DNA from: Pseudomonadaceae bacterium
GTDB taxonomy: Bacteria; Pseudomonadota; Gammaproteobacteria; Pseudomonadales; Azotimanducaceae
Reading direction: 5' to 3'
Assembly: GCA_024743435.1 (NCBI GenBank)
Contig: JANSWO010000006.1
Location: 124,001-188,000 of the forward strand
Length of the DNA stretch: 64,000 nucleotides
Notes under the pieces: model-generated
Databases searched by the model: none
What the model saw: only the letters and a program-made list of their open reading frames with translations
What the model was told of the DNA's origin: nothing
Translations under genes and position numbers: made by a program
Shown: positions 4,641 through 37,602 of the stretch, in pieces
Layout of the letters: each line of letters starts with the position of its first letter
Numbering within the stretch: the first letter of the stretch is position 1

Positions 4641-4686
4641 GCCCCGCGCCCGACTCGGCCGCGTTTTGCGCGCTCCGCTCGCTCGG

Positions 4687-4753
4687 CACGTCCAGAGCAA
4701 CCCTGAAAAGAATCGAAACTGATTAACCCCATTTTGCTTTCTCCGGCGTTTAC
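4687..4753. repeat. 67-bp direct repeat, copy 1
   Basis: A 67-bp unit beginning cacgtccagagcaaccctg is repeated at 4778-4844 with a single mismatch (gattaa here, ggttaa in the second copy). The period is 91 bp. The whole 396-bp gap 4539-4934 holds no convincing gene; it contains the hairpin, the microrepeat and these two copies. Confidence 0.85.
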
Positions 4754-4777
4754 AACATAAGCCGCTTGCTTGCTCTC

Positions 4778-4844
4778 CACGTCCAGAGCAACCCTGAAAA
4801 GAATCGAAACTGGTTAACCCCATTTTGCTTTCTCCGGCGTTTAC
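4778..4844. repeat. 67-bp direct repeat, copy 2
   Basis: This is the second copy of the unit at 4687-4753. It ends 90 bp before the start of the VWA lipoprotein, so part of the repeat may lie in that gene's promoter or leader. Confidence 0.85.
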
Positions 4845-4934
4845 TAAATAACGCCGTCTGAAAGAGCCTCTCTTCGCTCCTAAGTCGGACACTGATAACG
4901 GCCCCGCAAACGGCCACTCGTCCAGGAGACAGTC

Positions 4935-14433: not shown

Positions 14434-15765
14434 ATGGCAGGACCAACTAGCCGAGAAGGCTCGCTCGAAGCACCCAAGCGCCTACCAATCGAATGGCAGA
14501 CCGACGCGTACTACGACAAAGAAGAGCTATATACGGAACTTGAGCGGGTCTACGACATCTGCCACGGCTGTCGACGCTGCGTGTCGCTGTGTGAATCCTT
14601 TCCTACCCTGTTCGATCTGGTGGACGAGTCCGACACATTCGAAGTCGATGGCGTTGATAAGAACGATTACATGAAGGTGGTTGATCAGTGCTTCCTGTGC
14701 GACCTGTGTGCCGAAACCAAGTGCCCGTACCTGCCTCCGCACGAATGGGCCGTCGACTTCCCGCACCTGATGCTTCGCGCCAAAGCACACAAGTTTAAAG
14801 AGAGCGGAGCTAAGTGGCGTGACCGACTGATCACAAGCACGGACCCGGTGTTCAGCACCCTGTCAGTGCCGGGGATAGCGCAGACGGCAAACGCGGCTGC
14901 TGGCAACGACACCTTGCGCAAGCTCGGCGATTCAGTTGTCGGTATGCACGCAAAAGCGCCGCTACCCAAGTTTCACAGCAAAACGCTGAGCAAGCGCGTG
15001 CCGCAACATTTGTCGGGTAATGCATCTGCGTGCGACAGGACAACGGGTAAAGTCGCGATCTACGTGACCTGCTATGGCAATCACAACGAACCTGAGGCCG
15101 TTGAGGACATGATCGCCGTTCTCCAGCACAACGGTATCGCCGTTCGCATCCTAAGCGACGCGAAATGCTGTGGAATGCCAAAGCTTGAGCTCGGCGACAT
15201 GAAGCAAGTCGCCAAACAGAAGGATGCAAACCTTCCGGTCTTCATGGATGCGATCCGCGACGGTTACGACATCATCGCGCCGATTCCGTCCTGCGTACTC
15301 ATGTACAAGCAGGAATTGCCCCTCATGTTTCCAGACGATGAGGATGTCGCCACAGTCCAGAAAAGCTTCTTCGATCCCTTCGAATACCTGTCGATTCGAC
15401 GCAAGGCCGGCCTGATTTCGGAAGACTTCAAACAAGGCCTGGGCAAGGTTGCCTACCACGCGGCGTGCCATCAGAGGGTGCAGAGCTTCGGTCAGAAAAC
15501 CCGGGAGTTTCTGGCCTCAATCCCTGACACAGACGTCACAATCATTGAGCGATGCTCTGGTCACGATGGCACCTACGCCGTGAAGTCAGAAACCTATGAC
15601 AACGCGATGAAGATCGCACGGCCGGTAGTGCGCCGGGTGAAAGAAGTGGAGCCGGATCATTTCGGCAGCGATTGTCCAATGGCCGGTCGGCTCATCGAGC
15701 ATGGCATGGAGGATGGCACTGCCAGCCACCCGCTAACCATGCTGAGAAAAGCTTACGGAGTGTAA
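14434..15765 (+). CDS. CCG-domain (heterodisulfide reductase/GlpC-like) Fe-S protein
   Basis: The 443-residue protein has two N-terminal 4Fe-4S motifs. The first uses Cys43, 46, 49 and 53 (C-H-G-C-R-R-C), the second Cys86, 89, 92 and 97 (C-F-L-C-D-L-C). The C-terminal half carries CCG-type motifs: V-T-C-Y-G-N, A-K-C-C-G-M, H-A-A-C-H-Q and E-R-C-S-G-H-D-G. Such proteins pass electrons between quinones or flavoproteins and a partner. I start at the ATG at 14434, after the rubrerythrin terminator, since the longer frame runs through that terminator. The stop abuts the DUF3501 gene. It may be the electron donor to the rubredoxin-less rubrerythrin, an inference from synteny. Confidence 0.88.
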   Translation: MAGPTSREGSLEAPKRLPIEWQTDAYYDKEELYTELERVYDICHGCRRCVSLCESFPTLFDLVDESDTFEVDGVDKNDYMKVVDQCFLCDLCAETKCPYLPPHEWAVDFPHLMLRAKAHKFKESGAKWRDRLITSTDPVFSTLSVPGIAQTANAAAGNDTLRKLGDSVVGMHAKAPLPKFHSKTLSKRVPQHLSGNASACDRTTGKVAIYVTCYGNHNEPEAVEDMIAVLQHNGIAVRILSDAKCCGMPKLELGDMKQVAKQKDANLPVFMDAIRDGYDIIAPIPSCVLMYKQELPLMFPDDEDVATVQKSFFDPFEYLSIRRKAGLISEDFKQGLGKVAYHAACHQRVQSFGQKTREFLASIPDTDVTIIERCSGHDGTYAVKSETYDNAMKIARPVVRRVKEVEPDHFGSDCPMAGRLIEHGMEDGTASHPLTMLRKAYGV

Positions 15766-15767
15766 TG

Positions 15768-16346
15768 ATGAACAAACTCAGCCGAGACCAATTATTCAGT
15801 CTCGAACAATACGCCACCGAACGCGCAGCATTTCGCGCACAGGTGATCGAACACAAGAAACCACGTCGAGTGCAGCTCGGTGAACATCTGGTCATCCTGT
15901 TCGAGGACAGATTGACGATGCAGTACCAGATTCAGGAGATGCTGCGGATTGAACGGATCTTCGAGCCTGCTGCTATCGAGGAGGAGCTGGAGGCTTACAA
16001 CCCACTCATTCCAGATGGCGCCAACCTGAAGGCAACGATGCAGATCGAGTACGGCGACGTCGACGAACGCCGTGACGCTCTGGCAAAGCTCATCGGCATC
16101 GAGCATAAAATCTGGGTTGAGGGTGGCGGAGAGCGAAGCTACGCCATCGCGAACGAAGATCTTGAACGATCGACTGATGAGAAAACCTCAGCCGTACACT
16201 TCCTGCGCTTCGAATTGGGAGATGCGTTGATCAGCGCATTGTGCGATGGCGGCGAAATCAAAGTCGGTAGCGACCACCCGGCAATGAGCATCGAGAAAAC
16301 ACTCGATGAGGCGAGCACGCGGGCCCTGGCGGCGGATGTTCGTTAA
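15768..16346 (+). CDS. DUF3501 family protein
   Basis: The 192-residue soluble protein carries the family's L-F-E-D-R-L-T-M-Q-Y-Q-I-Q-E-M-L-R core at about residues 41-57 and a long charged body. No catalytic motif is evident. The ATG at 15768 is 7 nt from CGGAG; an adjoining ATG at 15765 overlaps the preceding stop. DUF3501 genes are repeatedly found directly after a rubrerythrin and this type of Fe-S protein, so it probably works with them in peroxide or redox metabolism. The biochemical role is unknown. A nested hairpin immediately follows the stop. Confidence 0.85.
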   Translation: MNKLSRDQLFSLEQYATERAAFRAQVIEHKKPRRVQLGEHLVILFEDRLTMQYQIQEMLRIERIFEPAAIEEELEAYNPLIPDGANLKATMQIEYGDVDERRDALAKLIGIEHKIWVEGGGERSYAIANEDLERSTDEKTSAVHFLRFELGDALISALCDGGEIKVGSDHPAMSIEKTLDEASTRALAADVR

Positions 16347-16391
16347 CGTCGATCATAGGGCGATCGCATTGCGATCGCCCTCCGATCGACG
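16347..16391. repeat. nested hairpin after DUF3501
   Basis: Outer arms cgtcgat and atcgacg enclose a very strong inner palindrome at 16358-16380. The inner palindrome has arms gggcgatcgca and tgcgatcgccc with a 1-nt centre. It sits at the stop codon of the DUF3501 gene and lacks a T-run, so it looks more like the head of the repeat array that follows than a classical terminator. Confidence 0.75.
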
Positions 16392-16474
16392 AGACTAAAC
16401 GCCCGCGAGAGCGGCAGCGTAATATTCAAAGCCTACGCAGTAGGCGCCTGAATAATACGCGAGAGTGTCCTACG
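16384..16474. repeat. structured intergenic repeat, copy 1
   Basis: A roughly 91-bp unit opens with gatcgacgag and contains a hairpin whose top stem is gcctac-gca-gtaggc, inside cgtaatattca and tgaataatacg arms. A second copy follows at 16488-16579. It fills the convergent gap between DUF3501 and oxyR. It is not protein-coding, and both copies contain stops in several frames. Confidence 0.85.
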
Positions 16475-16494
16475 TCGATCGCACCGCGATCGAC
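16474..16494. repeat. palindrome between the two repeat units
   Basis: A perfect gtcgatcgc-acc-gcgatcgac inverted repeat (9-bp arms) joins copy 1 to copy 2. It resembles the hairpin at 16358-16380, so each unit appears to carry a GATCGC-rich hairpin followed by the longer stem. Confidence 0.75.
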
Positions 16495-16579
16495 GAGAAT
16501 CAACCCCCGCGAGAGCGGCAGCGTAATATTCAAAGCCCACGTAGTGGGCGCCTGAATAATGCGCGAGAGCGTCCTAACG
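16488..16579. repeat. structured intergenic repeat, copy 2
   Basis: This is the second unit. Its top stem reads gcccac-gta-gtgggc, so the T-A pair of copy 1 has become C-G through changes in both arms. The rest of the unit is nearly identical. The compensated change indicates that base pairing is what is maintained. Confidence 0.85.
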
Positions 16580-24089: not shown

Positions 24090-25451
24090 ATGACTGACTA
24101 CAAAGTCGCTGACATCACACTCGCAGACTTCGGGCGCAAGGAAATCGCACTTGCGGAAGCTGAAATGCCCGCGCTCATGGCACTACGCGACCGGTATCGC
24201 AAGGAGCAGCCGCTCGCCGGCGCGAAGATCATCGGCTGCATTCACATGACGATCCAAACTGCTGTGTTGATCGAAACCCTCATGGATCTAGGCGCAGAAG
24301 TGCGCTGGTCCAGCTGCAACATATTCTCGACGCAAGACCACGCCGCTGCCGCGATGGCTGCGGCCGGCATTCCGGTTTTCGCCTGGAAAGGCGAGACGGA
24401 GGAAGAGTACGAATGGTGCATCGAGCAGACGATTCTCTCCGACGGCAAGCCCTGGGATGCCAACCTGTTGCTCGATGACGGCGGCGACCTGACGCAAATC
24501 ATCCACAACAAATACCCCGCCATGCTGGACAGTATTCACGGCATCAGCGAGGAAACGACGACCGGCGTGCATCGCTTATACGAAATGATTCGCGACGGTG
24601 AATTGAAGGTACCTGCCATCAACGTCAACGATTCAGTGACCAAGTCGAAGAACGACAATCGCTATGGTTGCCGCCATTCGCTGAACGATGCGATCAAGCG
24701 GGCTACCGATATGCTGATGTCTGGCAAGCGTGCGCTGGTCATTGGCTACGGTGACGTCGGCAAAGGCTCCGCCCAGAGCCTGCGCCAGGAAGGCATGATC
24801 GTCCGCGTGGCCGAGATTGACCCTATCTGCGCCATGCAGGCATGCATGGACGGCTATGAGCTCGTATCACCCTATGTGAACGGCAACAACACCGGCAAAG
24901 TCGAGGATATCGACACTCGCTTGCTCGGCGAGACGGACCTCATCGTCACCACCACCGGTAATGTCAACGTATGCGACTCCGCCATGCTGAGCACCGTTAA
25001 GAATGGCGCCGTGGTCTGCAACATCGGTCACTTCGATAATGAGATCGATACTGCGTTCATGCGCGAAAACTGGCGCTGGGACACCGTCAAAGATCAGGTG
25101 CACCAGGTCTTTCGTAGCGATGACAAACGCGACTACATCATCCTGTTGTCCGAGGGTCGCCTGGTGAATCTTGGCAATGCGATGGGCCACCCCTCACGCG
25201 TGATGGATGGCTCGTTTGCCAATCAGGTGCTTGCCCAAATGCATCTGTTCGAACAGCGCTGGGCTGACCAACCTGAGAACCAGCGCGCACCGATCAGCGT
25301 CGAAGTACTGCCCAAGAAGCTCGACGAAGAGGTCGCTGAGCTCATGGTTGCCGGTTTTGGTGGTGTTGTGACACGCCTGACCAAAGCCCAGGCCGACTAC
25401 ATCGGTGTGGAAACCGAAGGCCCGTACAAGGCAGACGCGTACAAATATTAA
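24090..25451 (+). CDS. ahcY: adenosylhomocysteinase
   Basis: The 453-residue NAD-dependent enzyme splits S-adenosylhomocysteine into adenosine and homocysteine, relieving product inhibition of methyltransferases. Substrate-domain motifs include [11 protein letters not shown], and the NAD fold shows [10 protein letters not shown]. The C-terminus ends in the family signature P-Y-K-A-D-A-Y-K-Y. The ATG follows AAGGA at a slightly long spacing. The short 51-bp leader is too small for a SAH riboswitch, so control probably rests with the upstream regulator. A composite repeat begins 3 bp after the stop. The usual metF neighbour is not present. Confidence 0.97.
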
Positions 25452-25453
25452 CA

Positions 25454-25585
25454 GAGGGGCTTTTCTTGTCGCTCGCAGAGCGAGCGGCAAGAAAGCTCCC
25501 AGACTCAAACCCCAGGAGAAGCGCAGACGATTGTCACCGATCGCAAAGCGATCGGAGCAATCTGTCGAGAGCGCCCCTCTACTAC
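25454..25585 (+). repeat. hairpin-bearing repeat element, copy A
   Basis: The element is bounded by GAGGGGC (25454-25460) and GCCCCTC (25573-25579). Inside are three hairpins: cttgtcgctcgc-aga-gcgagcggcaag; a ctcc/ggag stem with a loop containing agactcaaacccc; and gattg..cgatcgc-aaa-gcgatcg..caatc. It starts 3 bp after ahcY. Related copies are at 25765-25895 and, reversed, at 37392-37515 and about 37513-37602. Confidence 0.85.
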
Positions 25586-25700
25586 CCCACCCGAACCCCG
25601 GCGTGAACCGTCGCTTAGGAGATCGCCGCACTTCGGCGTTCGGCCGGGCTCTCGGCAGCTCGCAAGCGAGCGCCTGCCGCTAACAGATCGCGAGGCGTTC
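25586..25700 (+). repeat. linker module shared with the 37.2-37.4 kb locus
   Basis: This stretch contains gtcgcttaggagatcgccgc and a ctctcggcagctcgcaagcg hairpin followed by gcctgccgctaac. The reverse complement of 37222-37391 carries the same segments in the same order with few differences. Together with copy A it forms a composite unit of about 240 bp. No gene is present. Confidence 0.8.
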
Positions 25701-25764
25701 GGTCGAGTTCGCGGTGACGGGGCTGAAAGGCGGACTCCGCCGCTCAGTACACCCCACCCAGCAC

Positions 25765-25895
25765 AGGGGCTTTTCTATTGAAGCTCGCTCTGCGAGCGTC
25801 AATGAAAAGCTCCCAGACTCAAACCCCGGGAGCAGCGCAGACGATTTTCTCCGTCGCGCAGCGACCAAGAAAATCTGTCGAGAGCGCCCTTCTAC
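25765..25895 (+). repeat. hairpin-bearing repeat element, copy B
   Basis: The frame is the same as copy A (ggggcttttct..aaagctcccagactcaaacccc..cgcagacgatt..aatctgtcgagagcgccc). The stems are different: attga-agctcgc-tct-gcgagcg-tcaat replaces the first hairpin, and gattttct..agaaaatc replaces the third. It ends 29 bp before the stop of the convergent PPOX gene. Confidence 0.85.
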
Positions 25896-25924
25896 CTCAC
25901 CCCAACGCTAGCCGTTGGAGTACC

Positions 25925-26398
25925 TCAGTACACCCCACCCAACTTCGAGTGATCCCAGCTCAGCGTCTCTCTCGGCACAAACTTCAGCACCACGCGCTTA
26001 GGCGCGGTCTTTAGCATCGCGCCATGATTCGCCTCAGCGGAGTCAGCGCTGGCCTCCTGCCCCTTGGTATTGATATTGATGAGGGCATCTTCCACCGCCG
26101 CCTCGTCATCGATGACATGACAATCCGCATACACCACAACACCTCGAAGCTCGCTGTACTCCTCGCCTGATTCGACCAGTAGCGTCGCCCTGGGATCACG
26201 CTTGAAGTTCATCACTTTCTGGCTCTTTCTGAACGTGGTGCAGATATAGGCACCGTCCCCGTCCATGTAAAACCACATCGGCATCGGGTGTGGAAAACCA
26301 TTGCGGCCATTGGAGACGATCGTGAGCGTCTTTTGCTCCACCATGTAGGCGCGCAATTCGTCGTCGGTGAACATGATGGCTTCGCGGCGGCTGGGCAT
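25925..26398 (-). CDS. PPOX-class (pyridoxamine oxidase-fold) flavin/F420-binding protein
   Basis: The 157-residue split-barrel protein has the segments I-V-S-N-G-R-N-G-F-P-H-P-M-P-M-W and R-D-P-R-A-T-L-L-V-E-S-G. The tail S-W-D-H-S-K-L-G-G-V-Y is typical of TIGR03618-like PPOX proteins. These bind FMN or F420 and act as small oxidoreductases; the substrate is unknown. The ATG at 26398 has AAAGGA about 12 nt upstream, and an alternative ATG is at 26374. It lies between the repeat cluster at its 3' end and divergent tesB. It probably acts in the cytoplasm. Confidence 0.82.
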   Translation of the reverse strand: MPSRREAIMFTDDELRAYMVEQKTLTIVSNGRNGFPHPMPMWFYMDGDGAYICTTFRKSQKVMNFKRDPRATLLVESGEEYSELRGVVVYADCHVIDDEAAVEDALININTKGQEASADSAEANHGAMLKTAPKRVVLKFVPRETLSWDHSKLGGVY

Positions 26399-26484
26399 GA
26401 CTGATTGAATCCTTTCGGTATGAACTAACCTCTATACAATACGCGCCCCTTAGATCGACTCAAGCCAAGACCCGAACCGAGCCA

Positions 26485-27351
26485 ATGGAACAGTCACTAC
26501 AAGACCTCATCAATCTTCTCGATCTGGAAGAGATCGAGAAAAACCACTACCGAGGGCTTAGCCCGAGCGAGGGCTGGCAACGCGTGTACGGCGGCCAGGT
26601 GATCGGCCAGGCGTTAGTCGCAGCCTCACGCACGGTGGATGCAGACCGCCTCGCGCACAGCCTGCATGGCTACTTCATCCGCGCCGGCGACACCGAGATT
26701 CCTATTTTGTATCGCGTGAACCGCATCCGCGACGGCGCCAGCTTCACAACGAGGGAAGTTCAAGCCATTCAGAAAGGGCGCTCTATCTTCTCCATGCTGA
26801 TCTCCTTCCAGGTCCAAGAGGAGGGTCTTACTCATCAGATTGAGATGCCAGATGTGCCGGCTCCAGAAGACCTGAAGACCGAAGATGAGCTCAGGATGGA
26901 TATCATCGACCAGGTACCGGAGGAGTTTCGTAGCCACTTCACTCGCAACCGGCCGATCGAAGTTCGACCGATTGACCCGGGCGACATCCTGAATCCTGAA
27001 GTTCGGCAGCCGATGCAGATGTGCTGGATGAAAGCCCGAGAGCCGCTTCCTGACGACCAACGCATCAACCAGTGCGTGCTCGCTTATCTGTCCGATTGGT
27101 CGCTGCTGGATACGTGCCTCATGCCGCACGCGGTTAGCTACATGGCCGACGATATGCAGGTCGCGAGTCTGGATCACGCCATGTGGTTCCACCGCCCTTT
27201 CAAGGCCGATGAATGGTTGCTGTACGTCATGGATAGCCCGGCATCGTCAGGGTCTCGTGGCCTCAATCGAGGCCTTATCTACGACCGAAATGGCGTGCTG
27301 GTCGCCTCCGCAACCCAGGAAGGCCTGATCCGCCGTCACGCCTCAAAATAG
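26485..27351 (+). CDS. tesB: acyl-CoA thioesterase II
   Basis: The 288-residue double-hotdog enzyme hydrolyses medium- and long-chain acyl-CoA. The TesB active-site elements are present: A-Y-L-S-D-W near residue 196-201 (catalytic Asp), S-L-D-H-A-M-W-F-H-R-P-F, and A-S-A-T-Q-E-G-L-I-R near the C-terminus (Gln). The length equals that of E. coli TesB (286). An AT-rich tatacaat at 26434-26441 could be a -10 box, though no convincing -35 is visible. It stands alone between the divergent PPOX gene and the moxR-like gene. Confidence 0.95.
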   Translation: MEQSLQDLINLLDLEEIEKNHYRGLSPSEGWQRVYGGQVIGQALVAASRTVDADRLAHSLHGYFIRAGDTEIPILYRVNRIRDGASFTTREVQAIQKGRSIFSMLISFQVQEEGLTHQIEMPDVPAPEDLKTEDELRMDIIDQVPEEFRSHFTRNRPIEVRPIDPGDILNPEVRQPMQMCWMKAREPLPDDQRINQCVLAYLSDWSLLDTCLMPHAVSYMADDMQVASLDHAMWFHRPFKADEWLLYVMDSPASSGSRGLNRGLIYDRNGVLVASATQEGLIRRHASK

Positions 27352-37221: not shown

Positions 37222-37271
37222 CGCCTCGCGTTCGGTTAGCGGCAGGCGCTCGCTTGCGAGCTGCCGAGAGC
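37222..37271 (-). repeat. 50-bp tandem unit, copy 1
   Basis: The unit runs from cgcctcgcgttcgg to ctgccgagagc and contains a ggca..gctcgc-tt-gcgagc-tgcc hairpin. The second copy is at 37281-37330 with a single mismatch in the shared sequence. A related single copy is at about 25650-25700 in the opposite orientation. Confidence 0.85.
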
Positions 37272-37391: not shown

Positions 37392-37515
37392 TAGTAGAGG
37401 GGCGCTTTCGACAGATTTTCTTGGTCGCTGCGCGACGGAGAAAATCGTCTGCCGCTACTACCGAGGTTTGAATCTGGGAGCTTTTTTGCTCGCAAAGCGA
37501 GCCAAAAGAGCCCCT
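37392..37515 (-). repeat. hairpin-bearing repeat element, copy C (reverse orientation)
   Basis: Read on the minus strand, this copy has the frame of copies A and B. It begins ggggctctttt and has stem ggctcgc-ttt-gcgagc, then agattcaaacctc and the cagacgattttct..agaaaatctgtcg hairpin. It ends at cgcccctctactac. The third hairpin is identical to that of copy B. Confidence 0.85.
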
Positions 37516-37602
37516 GAACAATCGTCTGCCGCTACTACCGAGGTTTGAGTCTGGGAGCTTTTTGTTGCTGCTCGCTCCGCGAGCGACAACAAAAAGCTCC
37601 CT
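37513..37602 (-). repeat. partial hairpin element, copy D, next to cobT
   Basis: This partial copy retains the first hairpin and the agactcaaacctc segment but is truncated before the third hairpin. Its hairpin at 37557-37598 has arms agctttttgttg and caacaaaaagct plus an inner gctcgc/gcgagc stem. The A and T tracts make it a plausible terminator for cobT, whose stop is at 37605-37607. Confidence 0.75.

Follow-up and report, generated by a model that had tools for sequence, protein, structure and literature searches.

A family of palindromic repeats, numbering about 60 to 75 copies in one genome and including the copies found in the window, is built on a recurring unit made up, in order, of a first hairpin (H1), some 20 nt of linker, a second hairpin (H2) and a tail, with the H2 stem conserved as structure and the H2 foot and the linker conserved as sequence. 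In our reading, the H2 stems change by paired drift under constraint, and the H1 stems have in part been replaced whole. The abundant form is confined to its own genome among those searched, and the architecture may be older than that form. We place about half of our confidence in an interpretation of these repeats as non-autonomous REP/CIR-like palindromic elements recognised by their folded foot, an unusual relative of known repeats, and treat the possibility that they act as RNA at the 3' ends of transcripts as the main, serious rival.

The window, that is, the whole 64,000-nt stretch analysed (G000:C16:124001-188000), belongs to a genome of 4.15 Mb and holds the repeat at several loci. Copies A and B (25456-25572 and 25766-25885, plus strand) lie 3' of a gene at 24090-25451, which we take from its sequence to be ahcY-like, and their flanks are 92% and 79% alike in a direct-repeat comparison within the window. 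Copy A opens with an H1 of the GGGGC type (25456-25500), 4 nt past the ahcY-like stop codon at 25449-25451, and continues with the conserved linker (AGACTCAAACCCC.., 25501-25520) and with H2 and its foot (25521-25572), the 5' foot being one base short (GCGCAG); in copy B, H1 occupies 25766-25814 and H2 with its likewise shortened 5' foot 25835-25885. On the minus strand, a third locus (37404-37601) carries two H1 hairpins, the first (37553-37601) 3 nt past the stop codon of a gene whose last base is 37605 and the second at 37476-37514, followed by H2 and its foot (37404-37455). The fourth locus is a tandem pair on the plus strand (16347-16574), in which H1 (16347-16391) directly follows the TAA at 16344-16346 that ends an ORF at 15672-16346, and is itself followed by linker and H2 of the first tandem copy (16394-16470), a second H1 of a short type (16473-16495) and linker and H2 of the second (16498-16574). 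Between these two copies the upper H2 stem passes from GCCTAC/GTAGGC to GCCCAC/GTGGGC, a clean case of a compensated pair.

The stems quoted in the preliminary description are present in the sequence, the copy at 37.57 kb being on the minus strand. Of its series of four hairpins in a fixed order, the part that recurs is H1, linker and H2, and an opposite-strand repeat lies between A and B (25648-25680, minus) with the same foot, GCGGCAG[stem]CGAGAGC. This second repeat of the window, which recurs beside the third locus (37239-37271, plus), carries the unit foot on the other strand. At 4677-4851 the window also holds a different direct repeat, two 84-nt copies that are 93% alike. Read on the minus strand, the linker and 3' H1 arm of copies A and B give terminator-like patterns (25833-25809 and 25518-25496), and the region 25300-26500 contains three terminator-like sites versus 1.0 (sd 1.0) in shuffles; the unit may thus also terminate the transcript of a convergent gene.

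BLASTN with the window repeat returned 49 matches in its own genome. A covariance model built from 28 copies (R1) returned 59 and brought to light H2 stems of very different sequence, and a second model, built on 68 aligned copies (R2), returned 77 at E≤0.1, or 72 at E≤0.01 with stricter filters, the counts for both models including the copies used to build them. The copy number is approximate: like copies at contig ends (C7/C12, C4/C12, C13/C14) are possibly one copy counted twice, and several contig ends carry copies, as repeats do. Per-copy analyses used 72 of the 77 R2 matches; the five that were dropped are the four of lowest rank and a partial one at the end of a contig. On inspection by eye, a given H2 type is paired with several H1 types, and arrays of the form H1-linker-H1-linker-H2 are present; the combination of one H2 type with different H1 types and the repetition of H1-linker before a single H2 indicate that modules have been exchanged. 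GANTC stands in the linker of 22 of the 72 copies (for example at 25501-25520 of the window), with all four middle letters represented, where about 4 would be expected from the window rate, these counts being of related and not independent copies. By analogy with CIR repeats, the linker GANTC is a possible methylation site. A second palindromic repeat, AGATTGCC..TCGCAATGACG, stands before or after several units (for instance at loci L037 and L051). Hairpins of smaller size, in whose foot the outer pair is CC/GG (CCGGCAG..CGARAGG), occur at L181 (C12:155500-159600), L141 and L163 and are perhaps a sister family.

The H2 foot, GC-GGCA-G[stem]C-GAGA-GC, is nearly constant while the stem that it carries varies. 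Over 64 distinct rows, GGCA/GAGA is found in 37 and close variants in most of the others; the A and G that immediately precede the stem never vary in the 63 rows with letters there, and the outer pair is GC/GC in 47 rows, CC/GG in 3 and something else or a gap in 14. The exact foot pattern occurs 49 times in the genome, versus 5 for a reversed control, and no excess above 7 was apparent for it in 193 other genomes. A descriptor scan of the unit loci recovered 55 feet with a stable stem, versus 3 in the same DNA reversed, with T excluded at the third loop position, where it occurs once in the 64 rows. In the proposed model, the foot consists of a short helix on the outside, an internal loop of GGCA/GAGA (alternatively, flanks that stay unpaired) and a G-C pair that closes it.

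Folding and covariation both bear on the claim that stems are swapped while pairing is kept. Four folded stretches are more stable than dinucleotide shuffles (z of -8.2, -5.3, -3.7 and -4.5). We aligned 68 copies to the R1 structure model, a procedure which itself favours structure, including partial and poor rows and one row from a relative (G028). Across its 64 distinct rows and 15 pairs, pairing is preserved in 95.2% of cells, against 77.8% in shuffles and only 28.5-47.0% when the partners are slid; both-side changes with pairing kept number 128 cells against 28.9 in shuffles, and pairs with change on both sides 12 against 8.1. A tree-based test resembling R-scape (G-test with APC) was applied to 55 of the 68 rows of this same alignment, with a null of 60 alignments in which the substitutions of each FastTree branch were moved to other columns. 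Out of 2556 column pairs, 4 reached E≤0.05, all of them in the structure and all in H2, and 3 of these exceed every null value. The same test found no significant pairs in a sequence-only alignment of a narrow subfamily (all 28 rows). The proposal that both arms change together is thus borne out in the larger copy set, with no significant pair outside the structure, and for H2 the added copies strengthen it. The wider statement that structure rather than sequence is preserved stands for the H2 stem, by shuffles, slides and tree null alike, and fails for the linker and the H2 foot, which are kept as sequence. A weak linker hairpin seen in single-copy folds is absent from the consensus fold of the alignment. 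The enclosing arms that had been suggested are not copy-specific: in the 10 long-H1 copies covered by the test, no row having matched the short-H1 class, a helix of at least 5 pairs is formed in 8, against 7.1 when tails are shuffled among copies.

Beyond the genome itself, single matches with the unit build were found in three relatives, one of these matches being weak. R1, which was built without G028, matched that relative at E 5.9e-6 (the R2 value of 2.9e-8 being in-sample), and R2 gave one match each in G028, G029 (4.9e-5), G061 (0.0015) and G019 (0.008) in a search of the family that covered 40 other genomes. Inspected by eye, G028, G029 and G061 feature a hairpin in front and a foot with a pairing stem, the latter twice in G029 and G061; the G019 match lacks a unit-like build and was set aside. 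An order-wide R2 search of 193 other genomes gave two matches (3.5e-4 and 0.0047), both likewise rejected by eye for want of the unit build, which shows that chance alone can produce an E-value such as the one for G061, so that it is structure that carries the G061 match. The unit of G028 lies directly behind tRNA-Arg and that of G061 directly behind tRNA-Leu. Together with the one in the genome itself, the units that lie directly behind tRNA genes follow tRNA-Arg(CCT), tRNA-Arg(TCG) and tRNA-Leu(TAA), in three different genomes (L146, L067, L119). BLASTN with copy A found nothing in 57 other relatives, none of them from the same genus. The exact pattern of the AGACGATT subfamily was found in 4 records of unrelated taxa among genome contigs, a search from which records of the own genome were possibly left out, and in none of the viral contigs.

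The interpretation as REP/CIR-like elements starts from what the data show, namely the copy number, the unit, the covariation in H2, the near-invariant foot, the association of one H2 type with different H1 types, and the sense placement of units behind nearby genes. Were these repeats such elements, a protein would recognise a single strand in its folded form by the foot and the linker and not by the letters of the stem, and since such a partner would ignore stem letters, the stems would be free to vary. H2 stems would then drift in pairs, H1 would be replaced whole through palindrome-forming events such as template switching, the common linker would allow modules to recombine into arrays, and copies would persist mainly behind genes. 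Several points count against this interpretation: no cognate mobilising enzyme was found within the Y1 family, the one family searched; a purely selfish repeat leaves the sense orientation described below unexplained, unless insertion is itself oriented; and what was matched in G028, G029 and G061, in two cases behind a tRNA gene, could equally be old functional elements.

Grouping the 72 matches yielded 42 clusters and, by strand, 44 first units, which were compared with genes called by ORF length alone. Where an ORF of at least 150 aa lies within 200 nt in front (23 first units), 22 of the 23 units read in the direction of the ORF; where no such ORF is met until beyond 200 nt (12 first units), the orientations divide into 6 sense and 6 antisense. 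One of these 6 sense units is the window copy at 16347, with the shorter ORF 15672-16346 as its true neighbour. Three more first units, all sense, have an ORF of only 120-149 aa in front, and six have no ORF in the stretch. The start falls within 5 nt of a stop codon (ORF of at least 120 aa) in 9 of the 44 first units, to which the window copy at 16347 adds a tenth, and directly after a T-run in 8; one unit in the genome sits directly behind tRNA-Arg. At 16344-16346 of the window, as at the C6:28437, C11:60626 and C19:226577 loci, the TAA of the preceding ORF abuts H1, as if the left edge of the unit supplied the stop codon.

These repeats might instead be functional RNA elements of transcript 3' ends, in which both hairpins, transcribed behind the gene, fold and the foot of H2 recruits a protein that protects, processes or tags the 3' end; only fold and foot would matter to such a protein, which would leave the stem letters free. 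We judge this unlikely on balance, for all that it draws on the sense orientation within 200 nt of a gene, the proximity to stop codons, the position directly behind a tRNA gene in the genome and in two relatives, and the covariation. It also draws on the mismatches of H2, which on the sense strand comprise 9 G-T versus 2 A-C (p 0.065, not significant), the direction expected for folding of one strand. On the other hand, the first units that directly follow a T-run would lie past the terminator, and orientation is evenly split once more than 200 nt separate the unit from the gene in front. Loops of 3 nt, present in 50 of 56 distinct H1 and 30 of 38 distinct H2 (the latter among 55 descriptor matches), were seen in 4 of 13 local terminators, a small yardstick; H1 mismatches are balanced (9 G-T versus 13 A-C, some of the H1 in this count being poorly delimited), no promoter-like site was found at 25300-26500, and the family forms arrays and is present in many copies in one genome and in almost none of the others searched. 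The choice offered in the preliminary description between a branched RNA and a cruciform DNA is left divided by the same figures, with H2 leaning to one-strand folding, although not significantly, and H1 showing no strand bias. A more specific version, which we regard as rather improbable, would make the family a new class of structured 3'-end RNA, a two-hairpin tag with the linker and a purine-rich internal loop as its sole fixed parts, standing behind about two dozen unrelated genes and a tRNA as well as singly in relatives, and read by a dedicated protein blind to the stem.

How the H1 stems change bears on a third explanation, which holds that there is no selection on structure, that template switching homogenises palindromes and recombination in the linker swaps modules, and that covariation is a by-product. 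We find it doubtful as an account of the whole unit, yet the H1 hairpins lend it some weight. Their arms do differ between copies, as had been noted earlier, but look more like replacements of whole palindromes than stepwise compensation: 23 of 56 distinct H1 are perfect palindromes, some of 25 pairs, and the G-T and A-C mismatches are in balance. The GGGGC/GCTCCC ends of H1 were a selection criterion and hence are no evidence of conservation. Among the 18 distinct H1 of the short type, both partners have changed in 3 pairs, a weak signal that 16 of 500 shuffles also reach. One 20-nt H1 arm, searched in the genome with up to 3 mismatches, matched nothing beyond the two arms of its own palindrome, and an exact search of viral contigs with one H1 arm gave no match; we had considered H1 arms as captured sequence and set the idea aside, one arm being unmatched both in viral contigs and elsewhere in the genome. 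The tandem copies C5:66989 and C5:67118, in which the 5' arm is lost or changed, likewise fit an origin without selection. What such an origin does not account for is H2, whose foot stays near-invariant and asymmetric whatever the stem type and is found again in relatives, whose mismatches lean (not significantly) to G-T, and whose one-base T bulge near the foot is retained in the AGACGATT subfamily, where homogenisation would erase it.

Very improbable, finally, is the idea that the foot of H2 is a mimic of 5S rRNA loop E and binds ribosomal protein L25: the loop E of relatives, whose 5S stands in for that of the genome, absent from the assembly, does resemble the repeat (GGTAG..GAGAGTA versus GGCAG..CGAGAGC, with 4 of 10 5S loci caught by the pattern) and the genome has an L25 gene, but where loop E has its T, the repeat has C in 57 of 64 rows, A in 5 and T just once, in a footless row, while no foot with a pairing stem was seen by eye at the L25 gene and Rfam gave no 5S likeness at 25440-25900.

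To our knowledge, it is mostly by their sequence that repeat families of bacteria are recognised and distinguished. Many stem sequences combined with one foot and one linker in a single genome amount to a natural mutagenesis experiment, and with this family one can ask directly which segments of a folded repeat are read by its partner, and whether palindromes change one base at a time or are exchanged whole.

No Rfam family matched the window at the gathering score, and a permissive search of 25440-25900 gave five weak matches (best E 2.7), none credible; a literature search, for which most subscription papers were out of reach, turned up nothing pointing to this repeat. The CGTC REP, which combines a CGTC tag left unpaired with a stem of 8-9 bp, a loop of 4-5 nt and a CCA-like tail, is not matched: the foot differs, the H2 loops are mostly of 3 nt and not 4-5 nt, and in the short H1, which starts with CGTC or CGTT, these letters are paired. 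As to MITE-type terminal inverted repeats, the ends of long-H1 copies pair with their own tails at roughly the frequency seen when the tails are shuffled. The BOX, RUP and SPRITE repeats of S. pneumoniae are, like the present family, folded and clustered, with SPRITE enriched behind genes; BOX is modular, one module being absent or repeated, and each module is treated as a conserved sequence, the accessible part of that account making no mention of stems exchanged above a fixed foot (PMC3049150).

Closer in build are the CIR repeats of Caulobacter and Brucella, which, according to the portion of the report available, are of about 110 bp, consist of two stem arms and a linker, are intergenic and of unclear mobility, and are described as highly conserved between species (PMC2229807). 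The present unit shares with them the two stem arms joined by a linker and the presence of GANTC; compared by description only, it differs in that its stems vary freely and in that GANTC stands in the linker and not in the terminal loop (PMC2229807). Among the 56 H1 and 38 H2 loops, none contains GANTC.

A RAYT beside the repeat was looked for and not found, the genome having two Y1 genes, neither at a locus with an R2 match. These Y1 transposase genes were considered as owners of the repeat and rejected, since by eye other repeat types lie beside both. They are located at L031 and L032 (C3:20423 and C1:703598) and adjoin another repeat, GGACCTGGCAC..CTGTCCC and TCTGGCACTTTACTCTGACCCC. The likeness to REP/BIME, as far as the available parts of those descriptions go, covers several features: both are high-copy intergenic palindromes near gene 3' ends and clustered, with a conserved tag at the hairpin foot, many loops of 2-3 nt and complementary stem letters that alternate between subfamilies (PMC3733652, PMC8266576). 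The present family departs from them in its foot, GGCA/GAGA as opposed to a GTAG or CGTC tag, and in its build, in which two dissimilar hairpins are joined by a conserved linker and lie in sense to the gene in front (PMC3733652, PMC8266576).
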